This document shows, piece after piece, positions 45,829-51,038 of a stretch of DNA of 64,000 bases; positions within the stretch are counted from its first letter, which is position 1; each line of letters opens with the position of its first letter. Where the stretch lies: assembly GCA_025352225.1 (NCBI GenBank), contig JANXTT010000009.1, forward strand, positions 1 through 64,000. Reading direction: 5' to 3'. This DNA comes from Mucilaginibacter sp. (GTDB lineage: Bacteria > Bacteroidota > Bacteroidia > Sphingobacteriales > Sphingobacteriaceae). The position numbers were made by a program, and so were the translations under genes. The notes beneath the pieces were generated by a model. The model saw only the letters and a program-made list of their open reading frames with translations. It had not been told where the DNA came from and did no database searches.

Positions 45829-48800
45829 ATGCCCGATTTTTCCCACCTACACGTTCATACCCAATTTTCATTGCTTGATGGCGCTGCCGATATATCCAAG
45901 CTCTATAAAAAAGCCGCGGCCGATGGCATGAAAGCTTTGGCCATTACCGATCATGGTAACATGTTCGGCGTGTTTAAGTTTGTGGCCGAAGCCGGTAAAC
46001 ATAATGTGAAACCTATAGTTGGCTGTGAGTTTTATGTGGTTGATGACCGCCATAAAAAGCAGTTCACCAAAGAGAAAAAAGATGTACGCCGCCATCAGCT
46101 TTTATTAGCAAAAAATGCCGAAGGTTATAAAAACCTGGTCAAACTATGCTCGCTTGGCTATATGGAAGGGTTGTACAGTAAATGGCCCCGAATTGATAAG
46201 GAACTGATTCTGAAGTATCATAAAGGGCTCATCGCTACCACCTGCTGTATAGGCGCGTCTGTACCGCAAACCATATTAAAAGGCACTGAAGAAGAGGCCG
46301 AAAGCGAATTTAAATGGTGGCTCGACCTTTTTGGCGAGGATTACTATATCGAATTACAACGCCACGAAATTCCTGAGCAAACGACTATTAACAATGTGTT
46401 GACCAAATATGCTAAGAAGCATAACGTAAAGGTGATCTGCTCTAATGATTCGCATTACGTAGATCAGCAAGACTCTAATGCCCATGATATTTTACTTTGC
46501 GTTAATACTGGAGATATGCAGAGTACGCCTATCGCCACTGATGAGGAGGGTGGTAAAGGGTATCGTTTTGGTTTCCCAAATGATCAGTTCTATTTTAAAA
46601 CGCAGGCCGAAATGGGCAAGCTGTTCCATGATATTCCTGAATCGTTAGATAATACAAATGAGATAGTTGATAAGGTGGAGGTATTAAAGCTAAAGCGCGA
46701 TATTATGCTGCCTAATTTCCCTATACCTCCCGAATTTAAGATACATAATGGCCCCGAAAGTGATACCCTGAATCAATGGGAATATTTAAAGCATTTAACT
46801 TTTACGGGAGCAAAAGATAGGTACAAAGATATATCACCCGAAACAGAGGAGCGTATTAACTTTGAGTTGTTCACTATTCGTACAATGGGTTTTGCAGGGT
46901 ACTTTTTAATAGTGGCCGACTTTATACGGCATGGACGGGATATCGGCGTATTTATTGGCCCTGGGCGGGGGTCGGCGGCGGGGTCGGTGGTTGCCTACTG
47001 TACCGGGATCACCAATATAGACCCCATGAAGTATAACCTGCTTTTTGAACGTTTCCTAAATCCCGATCGTAAATCAATGCCCGATATTGATACCGACTTT
47101 GACGATGAGGGCCGCCAAAAAGTAATTGATTATGTGGTTGATAAATACGGTAAGAACCAGGTTGCGCAGATTATTACCTATGGCTCTATGGCTGCCCGAA
47201 CCAGCATTCAGGATGTGGGCCGTGTGCTGGATATGCCCTTATCGGAAGTGAACTTACTTAAAAAGATGGTTCCCGAAACTTTGGGGATCACGCTAAAGGA
47301 CGCGATAGAACAAGTACCCGAACTAAAAGCAATTTTGGCCGGCAATGATCTGCGCGCGCAGGTATTACGTGCTGCGGAGAAGCTGGAAGGTTCCGTTCGT
47401 AATACCGGGGTGCATGCGGCAGGAATCATTATCGCGCCTGACGACCTGACCAATATTGTGCCGGTTGCGGTAGCTAAAGATTCTGACCTGTTGGTTACCC
47501 AATACGACGGAAGGGTAATTGAAGATGCCGGGGTGATCAAGATGGACTTTTTGGGCCTAAAAACGCTCACCATCATCAAAGGCGCGCTAAAAATGATCAA
47601 GCAAAATCATGGTCGCGTTATTGATATTGATTACATCGAGCTTGACGATCAAAAAACCTATGAGCTTTATCAGCGAGGCGATACTAACGGTACTTTCCAG
47701 TTTGAAAGTGATGGTATGCAAATGTACCTGCGTGAGTTAAAACCTGACAAGTTTGAAGATTTGATCGCGATGAATGCCTTGTATCGCCCAGGGCCGATAG
47801 AATATATACCCAACTTTATTAAGCGTAAACACGGCTACGAACCGATCACCTATGATCTGGATGATATGGAAGAATACCTGGCCGAAACCTATGGTATTAC
47901 CGTTTACCAGGAGCAGGTGATGCTTTTATCGCAAAAGCTGGCTGGCTTTAGTAAAGGCGACGCCGACGTTTTGCGTAAAGCGATGGGTAAAAAACAAATT
48001 GAGGTGCTTAATAAAATGGAGGCGCAATTTATAAGCGGCGCCACGGCAAAGGGCCACGCTAAAGATAAGCTAACCAAAATATGGAACGACTGGAAGGCAT
48101 TTGCCCAATATGCTTTCAATAAATCGCACTCTACATGTTATGCGTTAGTGGCCTATCAGACAGCCTATCTGAAAGCGCATTACCCAGCCGAATATATGGC
48201 CTCGGTTTTAAATAACCAGAACAACATGGAGAAGATCTCCTTTTTTATGGAAGAGTGCCGCCGCATGGGTACGCTGGTTTTAGGCCCGGATGTGAATGAA
48301 TCGTCGGTGTTGTTTACCGCTACCGGAAACGGTAATATCCGCTTTGGATTAGCCGGAATTAAAGGTGTGGGTGATAAGGCCGTAGAAAGCATTATTGAGG
48401 AGCGGGAAAAGAACGGGCCATTTATGTCCATCTATGATTTTGCGCAACGGTCTAACGTGAAGGCAGTTAACCGTAAATCGTATGAAAATATGGTTTATAG
48501 CGGCGCTTTTGATAGTTTTAACTTAAGGCGCGCCCAGTTTTTTGCCAAAACCGAAAATGGCATACTAAGCGGAATTGAGCGGTTAACCAAATATGCTAAC
48601 GACTATCAGAACACGCAAAATAGCTCGCAATCGTCGTTATTTGGTGGCTCGGTAGCATCGTACATACCAGAACCTACTATGCCCGATGCGGAAGAATTTC
48701 CGTTAATAGAGAAATTAAAGTACGAAAAGGAAGTTATCGGCATCTATTTAACAGGCCACCCGCTCGATAATTATAAGGTGGAGCTGGAACGTTTCTGTAA

Positions 48801-49416
48801 ACATACCGTATCAGACCTAAAGCTACTCCAACGGATGAAAAACAAGGAAGGCGGCGAAGAAACGGAGTTGGCCTTTAATAACTTACGTAAAACTGGTTCA
48901 GAGTTGAGCATTGGCGGGCTGATAGCCAATGTGCAGCATAAAACCACCAAGACAGGTAAGCCATTTGGCACCTTTGTAATAGAAGACTATTTTGACAATT
49001 ACGAGTTCGCCCTTTTTGGCGACGATTATGTAAAGTTTCGCAACCTGCTGGTAGATGGTTATTTTTTGCATATCAAAGGTAACATCGAAGAAAAGTTCCG
49101 CCAGGAAGGCAACTGGGACCTGCGCATTACGGTGATGAGCCTGCTATCCGAAATGCGGGACAAGTTTACCAAATCGTTAACCGTGATATTAAACCTGAAC
49201 GACCTAAACAGCGAAATGCTCCATAACCTGCAAGAAGCTGTTAGCCAGAACAACCAAAAGTATCCGGTTAAAAACTGCACCCTGCGCTTTAAGGTTAAAG
49301 ATCAGGATGAAGCAATTTTAGTTGATATGCCCTCAAAAACATTCAAAGTAAACCCAAGTGATGATCTGATAGAAGAGATAAAGGCATTGACTAAGATGGT
49401 GCCAGTGTTGGGGTAA
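45829..49416 (+). CDS. dnaE: DNA polymerase III subunit alpha
   Basis: The 1195-residue replicative polymerase has an N-terminal PHP domain (HLHVHTQFSLLDGAAD, ITDHGNMFG, GCEFYVV, CSNDSHYVD) whose metal-binding histidines look intact. The catalytic palm has GRGSAAGSVVAYCTGITNIDP and PDIDTDF, with a further Asp in VIKMDFLGLKTL. The fingers have YRPGPIEYIPNFIKRKHG and the helix-hairpin-helix has FGLAGIKGVGDKAVESII. A C-terminal OB fold begins near residue 1020 (SIGGLIANVQHKTTKTGKPFGTFVIEDY). Intact PHP residues allow a proofreading role. A repeat-rich island follows directly after the stop. Confidence 0.97.
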   Translation: MPDFSHLHVHTQFSLLDGAADISKLYKKAAADGMKALAITDHGNMFGVFKFVAEAGKHNVKPIVGCEFYVVDDRHKKQFTKEKKDVRRHQLLLAKNAEGYKNLVKLCSLGYMEGLYSKWPRIDKELILKYHKGLIATTCCIGASVPQTILKGTEEEAESEFKWWLDLFGEDYYIELQRHEIPEQTTINNVLTKYAKKHNVKVICSNDSHYVDQQDSNAHDILLCVNTGDMQSTPIATDEEGGKGYRFGFPNDQFYFKTQAEMGKLFHDIPESLDNTNEIVDKVEVLKLKRDIMLPNFPIPPEFKIHNGPESDTLNQWEYLKHLTFTGAKDRYKDISPETEERINFELFTIRTMGFAGYFLIVADFIRHGRDIGVFIGPGRGSAAGSVVAYCTGITNIDPMKYNLLFERFLNPDRKSMPDIDTDFDDEGRQKVIDYVVDKYGKNQVAQIITYGSMAARTSIQDVGRVLDMPLSEVNLLKKMVPETLGITLKDAIEQVPELKAILAGNDLRAQVLRAAEKLEGSVRNTGVHAAGIIIAPDDLTNIVPVAVAKDSDLLVTQYDGRVIEDAGVIKMDFLGLKTLTIIKGALKMIKQNHGRVIDIDYIELDDQKTYELYQRGDTNGTFQFESDGMQMYLRELKPDKFEDLIAMNALYRPGPIEYIPNFIKRKHGYEPITYDLDDMEEYLAETYGITVYQEQVMLLSQKLAGFSKGDADVLRKAMGKKQIEVLNKMEAQFISGATAKGHAKDKLTKIWNDWKAFAQYAFNKSHSTCYALVAYQTAYLKAHYPAEYMASVLNNQNNMEKISFFMEECRRMGTLVLGPDVNESSVLFTATGNGNIRFGLAGIKGVGDKAVESIIEEREKNGPFMSIYDFAQRSNVKAVNRKSYENMVYSGAFDSFNLRRAQFFAKTENGILSGIERLTKYANDYQNTQNSSQSSLFGGSVASYIPEPTMPDAEEFPLIEKLKYEKEVIGIYLTGHPLDNYKVELERFCKHTVSDLKLLQRMKNKEGGEETELAFNNLRKTGSELSIGGLIANVQHKTTKTGKPFGTFVIEDYFDNYEFALFGDDYVKFRNLLVDGYFLHIKGNIEEKFRQEGNWDLRITVMSLLSEMRDKFTKSLTVILNLNDLNSEMLHNLQEAVSQNNQKYPVKNCTLRFKVKDQDEAILVDMPSKTFKVNPSDDLIEEIKALTKMVPVLG

Positions 49417-49418
49417 TT

Positions 49419-49575
49419 TTTTATTTCGGATTTCGGATGTTCGATTTCGGAATTGATTTTGGATTTCGGATGTGGGATATTCGATTTGGGAATTGATTTT
49501 GATTTCGGATGTCGGATTTTTGATTTGGGAATTATTTTGATTTCGGATTTTCGATTTGGGATGTTATTTTATTTT
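49419..49575. repeat. Degenerate GATTTCGGATG-type tandem repeats downstream of dnaE
   Basis: About four imperfect units of 32-40 bp are built from GATTTCGGATGT, GGGATATTCGATTTGGG and AATTGATTTT blocks. All have the same orientation. They begin within 10 bp of the dnaE stop codon. Confidence 0.9.
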
Positions 49576-49608
49576 TTATTTAGGATTTTGAATTTTTATG
49601 TGCCTTAC

Positions 49609-49905
49609 TTAATGATTTAACTTCTTATTTATATTATATTTTCTATAAATAGTGGGAGTGGTTATAAAAGTTATTAAAATACCTAATACCGCAAAGCCTT
49701 CAAATCCGGTTACACATTTAAATTGAGAACCTAAACTCATTAAAAAAACTATGGAAGAGAGGATGGACGATGCAATACCAACAAAAAACATGATTACGGC
49801 TATAAGTCCAATAGAAAGAGGGAACTTATTCTTAATTCTTAACGAGGAGAGGCGTGATTGAATTATCGGTGATATAACAATCAATAGAAGAGAGATAAGG
49901 ATCAT
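49609..49905 (-). CDS. Hypothetical 98-residue membrane protein in the repeat island
   Basis: I do not recognise this protein. It has three predicted membrane helices (about residues 1-16, 31-55 and 65-82) and a basic C-terminal tail (RKYNINKKLNH). It is the only minus-strand ORF between dnaE and trxA, and is flanked by repeat clusters on both sides (49419-49575 and 50001-50115). An ATG start and a normal length make it plausible as a gene, but no family or neighbour suggests a function. It could be cargo or a remnant within the island. Confidence 0.45.
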   Translation of the reverse strand: MILISLLLIVISPIIQSRLSSLRIKNKFPLSIGLIAVIMFFVGIASSILSSIVFLMSLGSQFKCVTGFEGFAVLGILITFITTPTIYRKYNINKKLNH

Positions 49906-50000
49906 GTAAAAGGTTTATTTATCGTTAGTATTAATACCCAATACCTTAATTAGGTAACCCATTAACAATTATGATAGAACATGAATCAAAATATTTTCGA

Positions 50001-50115
50001 TTAGGGATTTCGACTGATTTCGGATGTGGGATGTTCGATTTGGGAATTAATTTCGGATGTGGGATTTTGGATAATTTCGGATTTCGGACGTTCGATTTTG
50101 GATTTGGGAATGCGG
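50001..50115. repeat. Second GATTTCGGATG-type repeat cluster, upstream of the four-helix-bundle gene
   Basis: Imperfect units contain GATTTCGGATGTGGGATGTT, AATTTCGGATGTGGGATT and ATTTCGGACGTTCGATT, in the same orientation as the cluster at 49419. Positions 50017-50041 match the reverse complement of 50598-50622 perfectly over 25 bp. Confidence 0.9.
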
Positions 50116-50139
50116 GGATAATTATATCTTAATTTGAAA

Positions 50140-50147
50140 TAAGTTTG
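50140..50147 (+). promoter_or_regulatory. Predicted -7 element of the four-helix-bundle gene
   Basis: TAAGTTTG matches TAnnTTTG and lies 19 bp before the ATG at 50167, which gives a short leader. No TTG at suitable -33 spacing was found. Confidence 0.4.
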
Positions 50148-50166
50148 TTTTACAGATAAGATTTTT

Positions 50167-50547
50167 ATGGATAAAATTGAATTGAAAAAGCGAACTAAAA
50201 AGTTTGCTGTAGATATTATTAAATTTATTGGTGTTTTACCCTTTAACCCATCACTAAAGATTTTATCAAACCAATTGGTGCGCAGTGCCACTTCGGTTGG
50301 AGCTAATTATCGTTCCGCTTCCAGAGGAAAATCCAGTGCCGACTTTATTAATAAGATCATTATTTGCGAAGAAGAAGCTGATGAATCGGTTTATTGGTTG
50401 GAATTAATGGAAGAAACCGGATTAGTGTCAAAAGATTTAATTTATTTATTACAAAAAGAAGCCAACGAATTAACAGCAATTTTTACAGCCATAGGTAAAA
50501 CTGCTAAAGCCAATTTAATTCAAACCAAATCGGCAAAACAATTTTAA
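50167..50547 (+). CDS. Four-helix-bundle protein (23S rRNA intervening-sequence protein family, TIGR02436-like)
   Basis: The 126-residue all-helical protein has the family pattern RTKKFAVDIIKFIGVLP, ILSNQLVRSATSVGANYRSASRG, KSSADFINKIIICEEEADESVYWLELMEE and KEANELTAIFTAIGKTAK. Such proteins are basic, form pentameric barrels and are encoded in 23S rRNA intervening sequences or as stand-alone genes. The related Avd protein works in diversity-generating retroelements. No reverse transcriptase or variable repeat is nearby. The gene lies inside repeat clusters and between 25-bp inverted arms. Its function is unknown. Confidence 0.88.
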   Translation: MDKIELKKRTKKFAVDIIKFIGVLPFNPSLKILSNQLVRSATSVGANYRSASRGKSSADFINKIIICEEEADESVYWLELMEETGLVSKDLIYLLQKEANELTAIFTAIGKTAKANLIQTKSAKQF

Positions 50548-50551
50548 TCAT

Positions 50552-50636
50552 TAAAGACATTCGAAATAAAAAAAACATCCGAAATAAAAGACATCCGAAA
50601 TCGAACATCCCACATCCGAAATAAATCGAACATCAT
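50552..50636. repeat. Third repeat cluster, inverted orientation, downstream of the four-helix-bundle gene
   Basis: It is composed of CATCCGAAAT and ATCGAACATC blocks, the reverse complement of the clusters at 49419 and 50001. It contains the right arm (50598-50622) of the perfect 25-bp inverted repeat. Confidence 0.9.
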
Positions 50637-50717: not shown

Positions 50718-51038
50718 ATGGCTTTAGAAATCACTGATGCAAACTTTGAAGAGTTAGTGTTAAAATCAGATAAACCCGTTCTTGTTGACTTTTGGGCTGA
50801 GTGGTGTGGCCCGTGCCGCATGGTTGGCCCGGTAGTTGAAGAAATTGCTAAAGAATACGAAGGACAAGCAGTTGTTGGCAAAGTAAACGTAGATAATAAC
50901 CCAGGCATATCAATGAAATTTGGTATCCGTAACATCCCTGCCTTATTATACTTTAAAAACGGAGAAATAGTTGACAAACAAATTGGCGCTGTTCCAAAAT
51001 CTGTCTTGGCAGAAAAATTAAAAAAGCAACTGGCATAA
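50718..51038 (+). CDS. trxA: Thioredoxin
   Basis: The 106-residue thioredoxin has active site WAEWCGPCRM (C30, C33), the cis-proline segment NIPALLYFKNG and the conserved VLVDFW strand. It is a cytosolic disulfide reductant that would also supply electrons to the BCP peroxiredoxin encoded at 26881. It has its own promoter (50660-50691) and a strong terminator (51059), so it is monocistronic. Confidence 0.97.
   Translation: MALEITDANFEELVLKSDKPVLVDFWAEWCGPCRMVGPVVEEIAKEYEGQAVVGKVNVDNNPGISMKFGIRNIPALLYFKNGEIVDKQIGAVPKSVLAEKLKKQLA

Follow-up and report, generated by a model that had tools for sequence, protein, structure and literature searches.

What is a gene for a protein of the 23S rRNA intervening-sequence (IVS) family, S23, doing between two protein-coding genes, enclosed by long complementary ends? 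The question is raised by a locus in a 64,000-nt stretch of a Mucilaginibacter sp. genome (assembly GCA_025352225.1, contig JANXTT010000009.1, positions 1 to 64,000; hereafter the window), which a preliminary description had read as an IVS-type element outside rRNA, perhaps moved or excised as RNA or DNA. We consider it probable that the unit is a small mobile S23 cassette, flanked by inverted arrays of a 7-nt word specific to its own lineage. The features of the locus are the following.

45829..49416, + strand: dnaE, upstream neighbour (open reading frame listing; named by recognition, without family search)
about 49421..49600, + strand: third array, same word in direct orientation, after the dnaE stop (repeats; limits by eye)
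49993..50118, + strand: upstream array, built of 7-nt words of the TTTCGGA type with variants (repeats D1, I1-I4; outer limits by eye)
50017..50041, + strand: upstream arm, G-rich strand, perfect 25 bp (reverse complement exact at 50598-50622)
50167..50547, + strand: S23 / 23S rRNA-intervening-sequence-protein gene, 126 aa (PF05635, TIGR02436, 2rld_A)
50552..50634, + strand: downstream array, reverse-complement word (repeats D2-D4, I1-I4)
50598..50622, + strand: downstream arm, perfect 25 bp (sequence and repeat listing)
50718..51038, + strand: trxA, downstream neighbour (open reading frame listing; WCGPC motif in the translation, without family search)

An S23 gene between inverted arrays of a 7-nt word

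Read directly, positions 50017-50041 are ATTTCGGATGTGGGATGTTCGATTT, and their exact reverse complement lies at 50598-50622; the gene is thus enclosed by perfect inverted arms, just as the preliminary description had it. The arms are low in complexity and are the best-matching stretch of longer inverted arrays of the 7-nt word (46 nt with 85% complementarity in repeat I1), and the upstream gap of the gene contains a 42-nt segment with a lag-7 identity of 0.69. The assignment of the 126-codon gene to the IVS-protein family is borne out by matches above the cut-offs to PF05635, its sole Pfam family (E 1.1e-17, 64.6 bits against a cut-off of 33.8), and to TIGR02436 (E 4.6e-24, 84.7 bits against 24); the nearest solved chain is 2rld_A (E 1.3e-17). 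The closest 13 proteins on named contigs are 67-75% identical, 11 being labelled Mucilaginibacter and 2 only Bacteroidetes bacterium. With an S23 reading frame in the loop of long complementary ends, between trxA and a frame that we take to be dnaE by recognition and from the preliminary description, the locus does have the build of an IVS-type element outside rRNA. The architecture had been seen correctly; what escaped notice were the 7-nt word structure, the coupling of word and protein, and the hairpins that lie at operon junctions without a gene.

The arm does not recur at hundreds of sites, an outcome that the preliminary description had considered: one pattern, representing one word, finds 11 matches in 4.56 Mb on five contigs, of which 6 fall in the unit and the adjacent array and 1 in a coding region, and the same pattern read backwards has no match in the window genome. 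The array at 49421..49600 is possibly an older or gene-less copy. As for expression, TAAGTTTG is indeed found at 50140-50147, where it had been proposed as the gene's own promoter; this proposal fares badly, as TANNTTTG occurs at most 80 nt upstream of 9 of 182 S23 genes, against 11.1 expected. Between dnaE and the unit lies a 98-aa minus-strand reading frame (49609-49905) without Pfam or NCBIfam match, and the dnaE gap of another genome (L182) holds a stretch that resembles it by eye.

Complementary flanks, period 7 and polarity

Is this build peculiar to the window? For 127 distinct S23 genes with full flanks, collected within the host's family and on named contigs, the 250-nt upstream flank was aligned to the reverse complement of the gene's own downstream flank, with a threshold score of 32; genes below the threshold stay in all counts. 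This threshold, like the Jaccard cut of 0.15 and the 6-mers employed below, was chosen by us, and the order of the checks was not preset. A score of at least 32 is reached by 65 of the 127 genes, as compared to 2.1% of cross-pairings between flanks of different genes, and by 10 of the 127 in direct orientation. Among other genes, drawn from the window and from 20 stretches of 20 kb in which an S23 profile search found no match, 2 of 369 reach it (Fisher p 8e-43). The window gene, with a score of 69, ranks fourth among the 127, tied with two others.

A search of the window genome for further copies of the protein, as the preliminary description had proposed, brings the number of its TIGR02436 genes to five. 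Three of these are among the 62 genes below the threshold. By eye, the four S23 genes beyond the window's own all have complementary low-complexity flanks, built from different words: GTTGAAA, GAGATTT, GAGTTGC and GAATCAA types, with scores of 30, 34, 20 and 31, one of which passes 32.

The excess in flank autocorrelation is clearest at lags 7, 14 and 21, besides a slight increase at lag 1. The flanks are polar with respect to the gene: G exceeds C in the upstream flank in 114 of the 127, and C exceeds G in the downstream flank in 95. In a phylum-wide set of 29 loci the complementarity of the flanks is less pronounced but can still be made out: 8 of the loci reach the threshold, compared to 1.0% of cross pairs, and 2 do so in direct orientation. 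Their upstream flank is rich in G in 28 cases. The protein family itself is widespread, with a TIGR02436/S23 match in 114 of the 148 genomes of Bacteroidota that were searched and a maximum of 16 S23 genes per genome. Given their low complexity, the arms might be suspected to be alike by chance or by simple compositional similarity. However, own pairs score far above cross pairs, hardly any control gene reaches the threshold, and the reversed pattern has no match; the cross-pair and control-gene tests rule this explanation out, leaving it next to no probability.

The word follows the S23 lineage

Words vary among elements, yet they track the lineage of the S23 protein and not the site. Taking the 6-mers of the arms as a signature, we compared all pairs among the 125 of 182 genes that have one; a strict version, with the 6-mer in both arms and at least 1000 nt of flank, comprised 115 genes. 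The more alike two S23 proteins are, the more their words are shared, and this holds to about the same extent for genes at one junction and for genes at different ones. In the strict version, at least one common arm 6-mer is found in 37 of 40 different-junction pairs with a protein identity of at least 70%, in 47 of 81 at 60-70%, in 49 of 333 at 50-60%, in 77 of 1339 at 40-50% and in 79 of 3514 below 40%; as the pairs are not independent of one another, these counts are descriptive. With permuted signatures, sharing averages 6% for pairs of at least 60% identity. The word families that show this coupling include TTTCGGA, GAGATTA, GATTTGA and GTATCAA.

A tree of the S23 proteins, built by a quick method, gives the same picture. 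Counting labels with two or more rows, it requires 18 changes of word label (minimum 12, shuffled mean 50) and 30 changes of junction label (minimum 19, shuffled mean 74). That the site determines the word was considered and rejected, since pairs at the same junction with less than 40% identity share none (0 of 13 by 6-mers, 0 of 27 by the Jaccard cut).

Operon junctions and movement

Where do these genes reside? Both neighbours were found for 126 S23 genes. Of these, 102 have a gene of their own strand on either side, compared to 185 of 344 control genes (p 4e-8), and 12 are antisense to both neighbours; counted by junction, 114 of the 126 occupy co-directional junctions, compared to 265 of 365 control pairs (p 2e-5). 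The junctions named by family search have protein-coding neighbours and include argC/argD, sdhA/sdhB, metH/metF, miaB/sigma-54 regulator, pyrR/pyrB, nuoC/nuoD and fadB/fadA. In 320 pairs of S23 genes both neighbours are alike, the junctions often being common to several genera, so that many copies must be old and vertically inherited, and movement rare. Within nine same-junction groups the excess of own pairs persists (46% of the 70 genes, as opposed to 14% of the 664 cross pairs): in most groups the arms stay alike while the word changes. An exception is formed by pyrR/pyrB, whose word is conserved within the genus of the host, own and cross pairs both standing at 88%.

The comparison of the dnaE interval that the preliminary description had called for speaks for an arrival at this place. 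The C-terminus of dnaE was matched in 57 of 61 genomes searched, and in the 30 same-genus loci surveyed, fetched up to 1.5 kb past dnaE, a profile check finds S23 in one, the window's own; relatives thus do not all carry the gene here, with or without arms. Near relatives of the window copy, their word being the same or similar, are located at pyrR/pyrB, nuoC/nuoD and ctpA/der. Comparative sequence evidence of this kind indicates that the window copy is a local gain and that the unit moves on an evolutionary time scale, and to this extent the earlier suggestion of a moved element stands. At ctpA/der, two genomes (L096 and L097) hold the cassette in opposite orientations between conserved neighbours (72% and 93% identity), with the G-rich arm going with the gene; the flip may reflect an inversion or a separate insertion. 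Target duplication, such as an insertion sequence or MITE would leave, was not seen when two empty or nearly empty sdhA/sdhB sites (L299, L286) were compared by eye with filled ones, the species being far apart.

At pyrR/pyrB, an S23 gene is present in 8 of 30 loci read, and the gap of the window genome contains gene-less TTTCGGA arrays. This junction is also host to other elements. Nine of its gaps contain, by eye, a different palindromic element around CGTCATTGCGAGGAACGAAGCAATC and variants, beside which two (L256, L261) have a TTTCGGA-type arm remnant. Three further gaps (L259, L266, L283) carry a distant S23 subfamily of 35-37% identity, with another word around TTCGATATTC, which shares the junction with the near relatives of the window gene. 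An arrangement suggestive of nesting occurs at one metH/metF locus (L011): in the 3' flank, by eye, a GTATCAA-type arm remnant lies outside a GAGTTGC-type arm adjoining S23, much as if a newer element lay within an older one.

Gene-less hairpins at operon junctions

Hairpins built from such words also occur without an S23 gene. In the rpsN/rpsH gap, which could be parsed in 29 of 30 loci of the genus and measures 116-347 nt, a 7-nt-word hairpin is visible by eye in 21 of the 29, with words varying by species, and an S23 search of the gaps of all 30 loci gave no match. At sdhA/sdhB, where 50 loci were read and six genomes with an SdhB match were left out, S23 is found in 6 loci of a single clade, all with a GAGATTT-type word by eye; five of them are 74-84% identical to the copy of the window genome, the sixth. 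In most of the remaining loci there are hairpins of other words, without a gene; L299 and L286 are empty or nearly so. Several retain a GAGATTT-arm remnant adjoining sdhB, a pattern that suggests insertions or replacements in succession. Two sdhA/sdhB gaps (L291, L309) of about 700 nt apparently hold another reading frame.

By the strict score, arms are present in 27 of 69 gaps of these two junctions, one of which (L362) is another kind of palindrome and not a word array, and in 22 of the 26 gene-less arms long enough to test the best lag is 7 or 14. A signature could be assigned to 68 gaps, and in 40 of them it recurs in at least one S23 element from the genus. Mobilization of these hairpins in trans by an S23 protein of the same genome was considered as well and found weak: in no more than 6 of 35 gene-less gaps does the word recur in an S23 element of their own genome, the S23 loci of those genomes having been partly fetched, and a hairpin exists in a genome without S23. 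This genome, G094, is the only one of 61 in the genus without a TIGR02436 match, and has a word hairpin of the GAACCAA type at sdhA/sdhB (L345). At the hairpins of six loci, Rfam gave no match at the gathering threshold, with one match elsewhere in L287.

Such findings invite the view that the arrays belong to the host, 7-nt tandem repeats arising by polymerase slippage and being kept as hairpins for host reasons, with S23 merely lodging there. The frequency of gene-less word hairpins at rpsN/rpsH and sdhA/sdhB, and their presence in the S23-less G094, agree with it, as does the proposal of slippage for heptanucleotides, the most abundant class of long simple sequence repeats in most genomes (Mrazek 2007, as cited in passages of PMC4679880). 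However, host repeats would not be expected to track the S23 lineage across different sites, nor to be rare near other genes, where, besides the 2 of 369 genes with complementary flanks, 4 of 213 gaps attain a lag-7 identity of at least 0.7, nor to have a polarity tied to the S23 strand even in a flipped cassette. We therefore regard host repeats with an S23 lodger as quite improbable.

RNA stem or DNA-level copying

What keeps the two arms alike? One answer is an intervening sequence acting in RNA, the arms being preserved since the transcript stem is cut from polycistronic mRNA by RNase III, with the S23 reading frame riding in the loop. The architecture is that of the Coxiella IVS, which is cut by RNase III in vitro according to passages of its description (PMC4990558), the RNA of the unit (646 nt) folds with a z of -5.1 against 20 shuffles, its arms paired, and the preference for positions between same-strand genes is as this answer would have it. 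However, selection for an RNA stem should leave an excess of G-U among the mismatches of the arms, and there is none: G-U 111 against A-C 134 in 90 elements (p 0.16), and 35 against 24 in the gene-less hairpins (p 0.19). This argues against a selected sense-RNA stem, which the one available test does not support; DNA-level copying between the arms would leave no such excess. Moreover, the 12 S23 genes antisense to both neighbours and the two orientations at ctpA/der do not suit a transcript stem, and a selected stem alone predicts neither the period of 7 nor the sharing of words across sites by protein lineage. An RNA intervening sequence is thus an unlikely explanation.

A small mobile S23 cassette remains our preferred reading, and its life cycle may be envisaged as follows. 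Gene and arms would relocate as one, for the most part to junctions of co-directional genes, after which they would be passed on vertically while the word changes concordantly in the two arms. The arms could be kept alike by DNA-level copying, through template switching at the hairpin and slippage in 7-nt steps. An S23 oligomer might bind the array of its own word in hairpin form and assist in its relocation, with the help of host enzymes or of a partner that has escaped notice. Hairpins without a gene, at other junctions, would be short relatives of the same elements.

Close relatives among the S23 genes are under purifying selection. The median dN/dS is 0.07 in 40 pairs with at least 70% identity, unsaturated dS and no stops, the window gene being in none of them, so that S23 is evidently used in those relatives; S23 copies with stops exist as well. 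S23 is not known to possess catalytic residues.

Relation to known systems

The closest structural parallel is offered by the 23S rRNA IVS, as in Coxiella or Leptospira, with which the unit shares the S23 reading frame in the loop of long terminal inverted repeats and a sporadic presence. The terminal repeats of the Coxiella IVS measure 28 bp, compared to 25 bp for the perfect arms here, and results suggested that its S23 protein is not produced in vivo (passages of PMC4990558). In contrast to these IVS, the window unit is not in rRNA, being flanked by dnaE and trxA, the arms of S23 cassettes are arrays of a 7-nt word that varies between lineages, and the cassettes often lie between protein-coding genes of one operon, with up to 16 S23 genes in a genome.

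In its logic the unit recalls the REPIN/RAYT systems, inverted short repeats forming extragenic hairpins and linked to a protein family, as described in PMC3116915. Common to both are inverted repeat doublets in extragenic space that are able to form hairpins. Unlike in RAYT, there is no tyrosine (Y1/HUH) transposase domain in the window gene, which has PF05635 only; the repeat word of S23 elements varies between lineages, and their arms are 7-nt arrays. As for the high copy number typical of REPIN repeats, few matches were counted for the one pattern of one word searched. The unit combines an IVS-like build with a REPIN/RAYT-like logic and lacks a defining feature of each, the rRNA site and the tyrosine transposase. 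Long simple sequence repeats with 7-nt units, such as TAACTGA, are mostly intergenic and occur in some Bacteroidetes (passages of PMC4679880), features that they have in common with the S23 arrays; the latter differ in being inverted pairs around a gene, with variable word positions and lineage-specific words.

The four-helix-bundle fold of S23 type is also that of bAvd in diversity-generating retroelements. The window unit seems to differ from these, in that no reverse transcriptase was noticed by eye among the reading frames listed between 45000 and 55000. In the open-licence literature of PubMed Central we found no description of 7-nt-word arms around S23 genes. We appear to be dealing with a small mobile element of a little-known type, and there is a serious chance that the window unit represents a class of its own.

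Why should such an element be of interest? S23 is abundant in the Bacteroidota, purifying selection is strong in the 40 pairs of close S23 relatives, and each lineage of the gene is linked to a word of its own, a tie that raises the directly testable question whether each S23 protein binds its own word. The gene-less hairpins and cassettes point to a fast-changing hairpin layer at the junctions of core operons, among them those for ribosomal proteins, sdh, pyr, arg, met and nuo. In a more tentative extension, which we hold possible rather than probable, S23 would be the sequence-specific partner of its own word in a two-part mobile system with no known catalytic domain, protein and word drifting together; cassettes and gene-less hairpins would have spread into the operon junctions of Bacteroidota, and the 23S rRNA IVS would be only the branch that settled in rRNA.

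S23 relatives, some with Bacteroidota-like words, are also present at three loci labelled Gallionellaceae, Verrucomicrobia and Bacillota (L119, L110 and L109, respectively), where they may be the result of transfer or belong to mis-binned contigs.
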